Assembly: GCA_943354575.1 (NCBI GenBank)
Contig: CALRCL010000005.1
Span: 1-38,147 of the forward strand
DNA length: 38,147 bases
Reading direction: 5' to 3'
Source: Patescibacteria group bacterium UBA4664
GTDB taxonomy: Bacteria > Patescibacteriota > Saccharimonadia > CAILAD01 > BJGX01
Below the pieces are notes generated by a model, which was not told the origin of the DNA, made no database searches, and worked only from the letters and a program-made list of their open reading frames with translations. The translations under genes were made by a program, and so were the position numbers. This document shows, piece after piece, positions 7,073-26,243 of the stretch (position 1 is the first letter of the stretch; each line of letters opens with the position of its first letter).

Positions 7073-7480
7073 ATGGCTACGATTGTGGTTATAGGAGACA
7101 TTAGTATTGAGGAGTTTGCGCCGCTATACGCGTCGCTAACTGACCGAGATGTAGTGCCGGTGGTGTACTTTCCCAACTGGGGAGAAATGCTCGGAATACT
7201 AAACGGTAAGATCTACGACAGCATAACTCAAGTAGCTGTCGAGCATTGCCGAAACGAGTACCCGCGTGAATATATTCGGATGAGTGTATCTAGGTGTATC
7301 CAAAGGTACATGCGAGAACGATTGCCACATTTGTCACCTGGAAGAATCAATGCAACCGTATATCGGTCGTCGCAGATATCCTCTGGACAAGGCAATGACT
7401 TGGTCAAGATTTTGTACAATTATTGGTACGGATACTTCTTTGACCTAGATGACCAAAACCCTTTTGGGATGCTAGATTGA
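7073..7480 (+). CDS. Hypothetical protein, possible paralogue of the downstream ORF
   Basis: 135 aa; N-terminus TIVVIGDISIEEFAPLYASLTDRDVVPVVYF resembles the next ORF. Confidence 0.65.
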   Translation: MATIVVIGDISIEEFAPLYASLTDRDVVPVVYFPNWGEMLGILNGKIYDSITQVAVEHCRNEYPREYIRMSVSRCIQRYMRERLPHLSPGRINATVYRSSQISSGQGNDLVKILYNYWYGYFFDLDDQNPFGMLD

Positions 7481-8001
7481 AAAATACAATTGTAGTTTGC
7501 GGAGAAATATCTGACAAAACCTACAAGCCAATAACTCTAGGCTTTCGTAAGCGTGGTATTGAGCCAAAAGTAATTAAGCTAAAAAGCCATTACTTCCCAC
7601 GAGACGAAGAGTGCTTTGAGCTTTTTTACCTAACCATGGGTATATCTTCGGCCGATATGGCTACCATCTGCCGCAACCACGGAGCTACCGACCAGCAGAT
7701 GCATGGCTACCTTCGTGATACTGAAGGCTCAAATGAGCTTGATCCATACCATTATGCTCGGCTAGCGATACTCGAGGATAATGACATCGACCTAGAAAGT
7801 GTCGGAGCAGTTGTTTTTGACCACGAGCTGGGCTGGAGCCCAAACGATATCGCAAAGTTATTTTTCGCAAAAATCGATATTTATAGTGCAACCAGCGCCA
7901 TGGCCGTAGTCATTAATAGAAAGCTAGTTTACGCTCACACCAAAGAGTTTGATATGACATACAACTTTTTTATTCGTGAGCACAATATACACCCCTTGTA
8001 A
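7477..8001 (+). CDS. Hypothetical protein, possible paralogue of the upstream ORF
   Basis: 174 aa; TTG start overlaps upstream stop (TTGA); N-terminus TIVVCGEISDKTYKPITLGFRKRGIEPKVIKL. Confidence 0.65.
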   Translation: MKNTIVVCGEISDKTYKPITLGFRKRGIEPKVIKLKSHYFPRDEECFELFYLTMGISSADMATICRNHGATDQQMHGYLRDTEGSNELDPYHYARLAILEDNDIDLESVGAVVFDHELGWSPNDIAKLFFAKIDIYSATSAMAVVINRKLVYAHTKEFDMTYNFFIREHNIHPL

Positions 8002-24419: not shown

Positions 24420-24971
24420 ATGAAACTTATTATTGGACTAGGCAATCCCGGACAAGAGTATCAAGATACCAGGCACAATCTTGGATTTATGGTTATCGAC
24501 GAGCTAGCCGCTAAGCTCAAGGTAGGGCTCAAATTTGATAAAAAACTCAAGTCTGAAGTATCGGTTACGATGTACGGCGAAACCATAATACTAGCTAAGC
24601 CTCAAACATTTATGAACCTCAGCGGCGATAGCGTTGCCAAGATTGCACATTTTTATAAAGTAAGTCTGTCTGATATCTGGGTTGTTTCTGATGATATTGA
24701 TCTTGATTTTGGAACTATCAGGGTGCGCGTTGGTGGAAGCAGCGGGGGACACAATGGCCTAAAAGATATAATCGCAAAAATTGGCGAGGGCTTTACGCGA
24801 TTTAGAGTCGGAATCAAAAATGAAACTTGTGCCAACTTACCTTCGGAGGCTTTTGTATTGCAAAAATTTGATGCCTCCGAACAAGCGAAGCTCGAAGATG
24901 TTACCTTGAAAGCGGCTGAAATGATAATTGGTTCGCTAAGTGAGGGAATCGAAGTAACATCTGTAGGTTAG
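24420..24971 (+). CDS. pth: Peptidyl-tRNA hydrolase
   Basis: IIGLGNPGQEYQDTRHNLGFMVID, KPQTFMNLSG, GGSSGGHNGLKDI. Confidence 0.95.
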   Translation: MKLIIGLGNPGQEYQDTRHNLGFMVIDELAAKLKVGLKFDKKLKSEVSVTMYGETIILAKPQTFMNLSGDSVAKIAHFYKVSLSDIWVVSDDIDLDFGTIRVRVGGSSGGHNGLKDIIAKIGEGFTRFRVGIKNETCANLPSEAFVLQKFDASEQAKLEDVTLKAAEMIIGSLSEGIEVTSVG

Positions 24972-25074
24972 TATCAGGAATTTTTACGGCTTTTATTCCG
25001 CTTCATGCTCGCAATAGTAATTATATCTTGATAAGGTAGTTTCAATAAAATAAAAATAATAATAAAATTTAAAA

Positions 25075-25113
25075 TAAAAAACAGACCAGCCGTATAAACT
25101 CGAACTGATCTGT
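25075..25113 (-). terminator. Intrinsic terminator of the minus-strand ncRNA
   Basis: Minus strand ACAGATCAG-N15-CTGGTCTGT then TTTTTATTTT. Confidence 0.8.
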
Positions 25114-25300
25114 TTATTATTCCCTTTAATGCCCCCGATAACGGGATTTTGGCGACCGTCACAAAATATATAAGTAGGCCGTGGCGTTAAAGGGAGTAAT
25201 CTGCTCGCGAGATCTAAAAGGAGGGTGATTTTTAGATTAAGCCCCGCAGAGCAGATTACTCCCTTGAAATATATGGGAAATATGTTGTTGTTAAAAGAAC
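25075..25300 (-). ncRNA. Unassigned structured ncRNA gene, pth-dprA intergenic
   Basis: Promoter 25335-25307, 17-bp perfect stem 25190-25206/25249-25265, alternative stem 25122-25133/25183-25194, terminator at 25113-25075. Confidence 0.75.
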
Positions 25301-25306
25301 GGTAGT

Positions 25307-25335
25307 ATACTATCACATAAGAAGTATCTTGTCAA
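25307..25335 (-). promoter_or_regulatory. Sigma70-type promoter TTGACA-N17-TAGTAT
   Basis: Plus-strand TGTCAA 25330-25335 and ATACTA 25307-25312. Confidence 0.75.
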
Positions 25336-25391
25336 TAGTTTTTACCACTTATGTTTATGGCTATTGAAATAATTACAGATAGAGCAAGAAA

Positions 25392-26243
25392 ATGAATATA
25401 CAACATATTAGATATAATGACAATAGTTTTCCGAGTTTACTGCGGGGTATTGCTAGCCCACCAAAAGAACTATATGTAGCCGGAGCATTGCCAGAGCTAC
25501 CGATGGTAGCGATTGTTGGAACCAGAAAGCCTACTAGCTATGGTGCTGAGGTAACTTACCGAATCGCTAGCGAGCTCGCTAGAGCTGGATTTTGTGTGGT
25601 TAGCGGCATGGCACTTGGCATTGATACCATCGTCCATAAGGCCGTTTTGGAGGCCGGTGGCTCAACTCTGGCAGTGCTTGGCTGTGGACTAGATAAGCCC
25701 TATCCCCGAGCCAACACGAGCTTGTTTGGAGCAATAATCAAATCTGGTGGGGCTGTAATTAGCGAGTATCCGGATGGCACTGAGCCACTGCGCTTTAACT
25801 TTCCGGCCCGCAATAGAATAATAGCTGGGCTCAGTATGGCTACGGTTGTAACAGAGGCCGACGCTAAATCTGGCAGTCTGATAACCGCTAATTTTGCTCT
25901 GCAGGCAAACCGCATGGTAATGGCTGTACCTGGCAACACCACTAGCCTGCGCTCGGCTGGGCCTAATAATCTTATAAAGAGCGGGGCGCAGTTGGTAACA
26001 GGCGCCTCAGACATCCTGGCGCTACTCGGGTTTTTAAGCCCCCAGCTCGTTCGAGCCAAGCCAAAAGCCGACAGCAAGCAGGAGGCCATGATAATGGACT
26101 TACTGGCATTCAAATCGTTGACTTCTCAGCAGTTAATTGAAGAGACCAAAATCGATGCTATAAGTCTAGCTTCGATTATGAGCCTAATGGAGATAACTGG
26201 GAAAATCAAAAACCTCGGTGCTGGCAGCTGGATACTTTCGTGA
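25392..26243 (+). CDS. dprA: DNA-processing protein DprA with C-terminal winged-helix region
   Basis: VGTRKPTSYG, VSGMALGIDTIVHKAVLEAGGSTLAVLGCGLD, FPARNRIIAGLS. Confidence 0.94.
   Translation: MNIQHIRYNDNSFPSLLRGIASPPKELYVAGALPELPMVAIVGTRKPTSYGAEVTYRIASELARAGFCVVSGMALGIDTIVHKAVLEAGGSTLAVLGCGLDKPYPRANTSLFGAIIKSGGAVISEYPDGTEPLRFNFPARNRIIAGLSMATVVTEADAKSGSLITANFALQANRMVMAVPGNTTSLRSAGPNNLIKSGAQLVTGASDILALLGFLSPQLVRAKPKADSKQEAMIMDLLAFKSLTSQQLIEETKIDAISLASIMSLMEITGKIKNLGAGSWILS

Follow-up and report, generated by a model that had tools for sequence, protein, structure and literature searches.

A previously unlisted small RNA gene with an anti-Shine-Dalgarno-like loop keeps its chromosomal position beside dprA in many tiny episymbiotic bacteria of one group

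The alpha-r14 small RNAs of alphaproteobacteria, which include NfeR1 and are also called 'cuckoo RNAs', are built of hairpins whose loops carry the ultraconserved anti-Shine-Dalgarno sequence CCUCCUCCC while their stems diverge, and NfeR1 represses ntrB by pairing at the ntrB translation start (PMC10746234, PMC3927594). In Gram-positive bacteria, C-rich small RNAs with UCCC motifs, for example the Rsa RNAs of Staphylococcus and the loops of RNAIII, use unpaired boxes to pair with the Shine-Dalgarno sequences of several mRNAs (PMC3861533). The RNA gene described here, from a member of the Patescibacteria, resembles both. As in alpha-r14, an anti-Shine-Dalgarno hairpin loop stays constant while the stems diverge; as in the Staphylococcus RNAs, there is a C-rich unpaired box, here predicted to pair with Shine-Dalgarno sequences. 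The loop gives a strong computational match to translation initiation regions, with which it may pair. However, where alpha-r14 RNAs have three hairpins with identical seed loops, each carrying CCUCCUCCC, our RNA has one main seed loop (ACCCUCC), and it differs further in its architecture, which includes a P2 domain, in its phylum and in its fixed pth/dprA locus. Unlike the Staphylococcus RNAs, none of which it matches in Rfam, it is conserved far more broadly at a single locus. We detected no sequence relationship to alpha-r14. The simplest reading is that the RNA would work like NfeR1 (PMC10746234) and the C-rich Staphylococcus small RNAs (PMC3861533), with homology detected to neither.

The gene lies within a window of 38,147 nucleotides, the whole stretch of DNA that was analysed, and its features are collected in Table 1. 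The initial annotation had recognised an orphan noncoding RNA gene with a promoter and a terminator, both of which are found where it placed them. With pth convergent, dprA divergent, and a promoter and terminator of its own, as expected of a trans-acting anti-Shine-Dalgarno small RNA, the gene is not the leader of a downstream gene. Sequence comparison of homologues reveals a preserved TTGACA with a -10 element of the GTGATA type, and promoter, hairpin and terminator are all conserved in relatives; such conservation, as read from aligned sequences, carries more weight than agreement with the consensus elements does. The claim that no open reading frame fits holds in substance but not to the letter. 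Two mechanical frames with GTG starts do overlap the gene, one of 107 aa at 24993-25316 and one of 62 aa at 24974-25162, but coding is not supported because homologues differ by 1-2 base indels in this region; as these are incompatible with a protein-coding reading of the locus, we set that reading aside. The start of dprA (window 25390-25392) has no clear Shine-Dalgarno sequence, and the RNA is therefore not expected to act on this neighbor.

Table 1. Features of the RNA gene and its neighbors in the window
Feature	Position	Strand	Details
Sigma-70-type promoter	25307..25335	minus	TTGACA 25335-25330, 17-base spacer, TAGTAT 25312-25307; from sequence
Predicted transcript, about 225-230 nt	25072..25300	minus	promoter-to-terminator span; start predicted
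Hairpin P1	25190..25265	minus	17-bp stem 25265-25249/25206-25190, inner stem ATCTAAAA/TTTTAGAT
P1 loop CACCCUCC, anti-Shine-Dalgarno-like seed	25220..25227	minus	ACCCUCC = 25226-25220
Domain P2	25122..25194	minus	CCCUUUAACGCC 25194-25183 / GGCAUUAAAGGG 25133-25122; class-wide covariation
Small stems closed by P2		minus	CGGCC 25181-25177/GGUCG 25157-25153; CCC 25145-25143/GGG 25136-25134
Intrinsic terminator	25071..25113	minus	ACAGATCAG 25113-25105 / CTGGTCTGT 25089-25081, then TTTTTATTTT
dprA	25392..26243	plus	divergent neighbor, syntenic marker
pth	24420..24971	plus	convergent neighbor, syntenic marker

BLASTN recovered homologues in all 16 of the same-order genomes sampled (Saccharibacteria), and at these loci the RNA adjoins dprA and/or pth, one locus (L010) showing pth only. 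The search was widened stepwise with covariance models R1, R2 and R3, the last of which found homologues in 94 of 393 genomes of the class (a lower bound, given strict filters) and in 7 genomes outside it, belonging to families f72, f83 and f133; these counts are approximate, since strict filters lose members and the weakest R3 matches may include a few false ones. Where the flanks can be read, the RNA stands nearly always beside dprA and/or pth, a synteny that holds across the class and at three loci outside it. In weak matches with readable DNA, inspected by eye, the promoter, P1 with a C-rich loop, P2 and the terminator are recognizable, and most of these loci likewise adjoin dprA and/or pth. 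An early weak match of R1, in G092, stands in a coding-like context and does not resemble a member. Family f7, which is better sampled than any other in the class, has homologues too, and a cultured representative may therefore be available.

Over 242 bases, the minus strand has a predicted folding energy of -81.2 kcal/mol. Its dinucleotide shuffles average -47.8 +/- 4.7 kcal/mol, and 0 of 200 are as stable (z -7.2), which places the fold far beyond chance. The perfect 17-bp stem of P1 and its inner 8-bp stem are present as first described. The 12-bp stem of P2 was also rightly positioned, but the wobble attributed to it is a G-T on the plus strand only and becomes a C-A mismatch in the minus-strand RNA. 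Both long stems do require 25190-25194. In an order-level MAFFT alignment of 17 sequences (A2), 12 pairs show compensatory changes against 5.0 +/- 1.5 in shuffles, with 0 of 500 shuffles as good, and the changes fall in the P1 core and in P2 with its inner stem. A class-wide alignment of 19 sequences (A6), which was fitted to the model structure and hence leans towards it, contains 28 pairs changed on both sides (112 cells; 0 of 500 shuffles). Conversely, the outer 6 bp of P1, which compete with P2, show breaks only and zero compensatory changes among the 17 sequences of A2. Of the two competing pairings, P2 is thus the one that covaries, a question raised by the initial annotation, and its idea of two states is borne out as to the overlap and the covariation of P2 and the P1 core but not as to the competing extension. 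On this comparative evidence, most of the order genuinely has the contested strand, CCCUUU, with P2 the supported pairing. The outer 6 bp are kept in family f1, largely kept in f3 and lost in f2 (L016); f8, f14 and f16 also lack this extension.

We considered, and rejected, a pseudoknot between the loop CACCCU and a 3' AGGGUG; judged by eye, only f8, f14 and part of f1 could form it, and it is absent in the window's genus, f2, f3, f16 and f7. In some lineages only, at L128-L133 (without L132) and L008-L014, the 3' strand of P2, AAGGGUGU, could instead pair with the loop CACCCU and so hide the seed.

The most informative feature of the RNA is its near-invariant ACCCUCC, which resembles the anti-Shine-Dalgarno sequence of 16S rRNA. 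It recurs in nearly every homologue read while the surrounding stems change (L176 has CCCCUCC in its place), and it is predicted to be exposed in either P1/P2 fold. The 16S tail, CACCUCC, is one C shorter. This loop had been overlooked initially, and ligand tests were for that reason proposed rather than mRNA targets. Family f7 has a second C-rich loop, GCCCACCC, within the terminator and a C-rich stretch within the leader; at its loci L175-L178, L317, L319 and L320, a conserved C-rich terminator loop GAUGCCCACCCUU and a ACCCCCUAUUCUAAC leader are possibly further seeds.

On balance, the gene probably encodes a stand-alone, trans-acting small RNA whose ACCCUCC loop blocks ribosome binding, with the mRNA of an HExxH zinc-ribbon protein as its best target in Saccharimonadia. 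Hairpin P1 would present the loop, the loop would pair with the Shine-Dalgarno region of an mRNA (GGAGGGU and close variants), and this pairing would keep the 30S subunit off the message. The best-supported candidate in Saccharimonadia would be the mRNA of a conserved protein combining HExxH and a zinc ribbon, weakly IrrE/M78-like, and lexA, dnaA and pyrG may be further targets. Gene anatomy, conservation, synteny, covarying structure, a preserved loop and a specific match between loop and ribosome-binding site were all computed; transcription, pairing in the cell, repression and any switching role for the contested P1/P2 junction are what we infer.

For the target ranking, a simple script called the genes, choosing starts partly by 16S pairing and so favoring Shine-Dalgarno-like sites, and start regions (-25 to +6) were scored against the loop of their own genome. 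Over genome stretches that were partial for all genomes but G000, and with the locus of the target gene added to the G005 set, the HExxH zinc-ribbon gene ranked 1 of 608 (G000), 8 of 322 (G005), 1 of 338 (G015), 2 of 436 (G026) and 1 of 298 (G032), an agreement inflated by shared ancestry. Among 184 ortholog groups the gene came first, with a mean log10 percentile of -2.35, a result equalled by 0 of 60 shuffled loops and by 0 of 120 that kept the CCUCC core (180 in all), and when scored with the 16S tail it reached percentiles of 3-41% only. In 19 of 20 genomes, its start pairs better with the own loop than with the 16S tail, the exception, G015, being a loop mis-extracted by the script. Because the gene was first picked from the G000 ranking, the other genomes constitute the test, with shared ancestry remaining. 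In the genome to which the window belongs, the gene lies outside the window, at C17:14501, and encodes a protein of ~150 aa in which HExxH is followed downstream by ME..AW and which also has a CxxC...CxxC ribbon; Peptidase_M78 (IrrE-like) matches 6 of 20 members weakly (best E 0.00065), and profile matches to IrrE structures are weak (E 0.07).

Covariation between loop and site is imperfect, as G020, G023 and G040 have the loop UGCACCC but the site GGGUGAG, and in G030 and G013 the HExxH gene has poor ribosome-binding sites. In f7 the gene keeps no loop-matching site, and outside the class, where it is also found, no exact GGAGGGTG occurs at its start. The genes pyrG, dnaA and lexA recur in the loop ranking and rank high with the 16S tail as well, the first two also with some shuffled loops; they are possible targets, weaker and less specific by this scoring. 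The ribosome-binding site of dnaA (loci L179-L206) reads GGGUGA(G) in most f1 and f4 genomes and not in f8. Counted together, G475, G581, G589, G431, G554 and G572 have 45 occurrences of GGAGGGTG ahead of a start codon against 16 of the reversed control, an excess to be expected of Shine-Dalgarno sequences and perhaps including targets; GGAGGGTGATG recurs in four genomes.

Several other readings of the locus deserve consideration. That the gene is a housekeeping RNA, whether 6S, SRP, RNase P or tmRNA, so diverged that Rfam overlooks it is very improbable, although Rfam at gathering scores detects none of 6S, SRP and RNase P RNA in the genome, which is 92% complete. Across the window RNA and ten homologous loci, no family of Rfam 15 reaches its gathering threshold, and the best sub-threshold matches of the window RNA are to eukaryotic microRNA models (E 0.05); the initial expectation that no known family would match, in which 6S had been singled out, is borne out for RF00013 too. 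6S RNA is of similar length and also a stand-alone gene, yet its model gives no match to the window RNA at gathering score, and one long rod with a central bubble is unlike a hairpin, a P2 domain and a terminator. The window RNA shows no SRP helix 8 motif, tmRNA is located on contig C9, and RNase P motifs lie on C9 as well; diverged RNase P is already known in CPR (PMC8172020). The RNase P RNA motifs, GAGGAAAGUCC and ACAAAAUUCGGCUUA, stand about 520 bases apart on the C9 minus strand at about 7220-7755 (reverse-complement coordinates), although across this genome every RNase P family stays below its Rfam gathering score. The RNA could alternatively be a structural switch, in which CCCUUU is contested by the 5' and the 3' AAAGGG, and the outcome, set by a ligand, by temperature or by a protein, exposes or hides the loop. 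The overlap of the stems, kept in most of the order, and a contest resembling the window's at three loci outside the class (by eye) are consistent with such a role for the P1/P2 junction. However, two exclusive helices that both covary, as in a riboswitch-like switch, were not found among the few sequences compared, the competing extension is absent in L016, f8, f14 and f16, and the loop would be exposed whichever fold forms; we hence regard a switch as quite improbable.

The loop is nearly invariant and resembles the 16S tail AUCACCUCCUUUC, which may also point to a protein partner. By mimicking the 16S 3' end, the RNA might bind a factor of ribosome assembly or initiation, or a C-rich RNA-binding protein of the KH type, as a decoy or scaffold, which would agree with the finding of no mRNA site conserved outside the class. 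Against this, the loop has one C more than the 16S tail, and it is to the loop and not to that tail that the target match is specific, making a decoy unlikely. Finally, the P1 arm and the 16S 3' trailer AGGGAGUAAUC-GCUC of this genome could form 15 pairs interrupted by one bulge, as though the RNA guided 16S 3' processing. This pairing, striking as it is here, is not followed in relatives, since the trailer beyond AGGGAG does not track the P1 arm in G005, G006, G009, G011-G014 or other orders, and a guide function can scarcely be credited. The 16S 3' trailer (C14 in this genome) begins CUAGGGAG in every class genome read, a conservation extending beyond the mature end.

Small RNAs that act in trans usually show narrow conservation. 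Many families share the RNA described here, at one locus and with hardly any change in its loop, and this offers a concrete starting point from which post-transcriptional control in the phylum can be tested. We found no characterized trans-acting small RNA of Patescibacteria in the open-access literature, and Rfam lists none here. It is tempting to speculate, though tentatively, that the gene encodes a core regulatory RNA of much of Patescibacteria, an anti-Shine-Dalgarno hairpin that different classes retain at the pth-dprA locus, whose targets vary by lineage and which in Saccharimonadia may repress an IrrE-like metallopeptidase and perhaps lexA and dnaA. If so, this RNA would represent a control point of replication or the stress response in episymbiotic bacteria.
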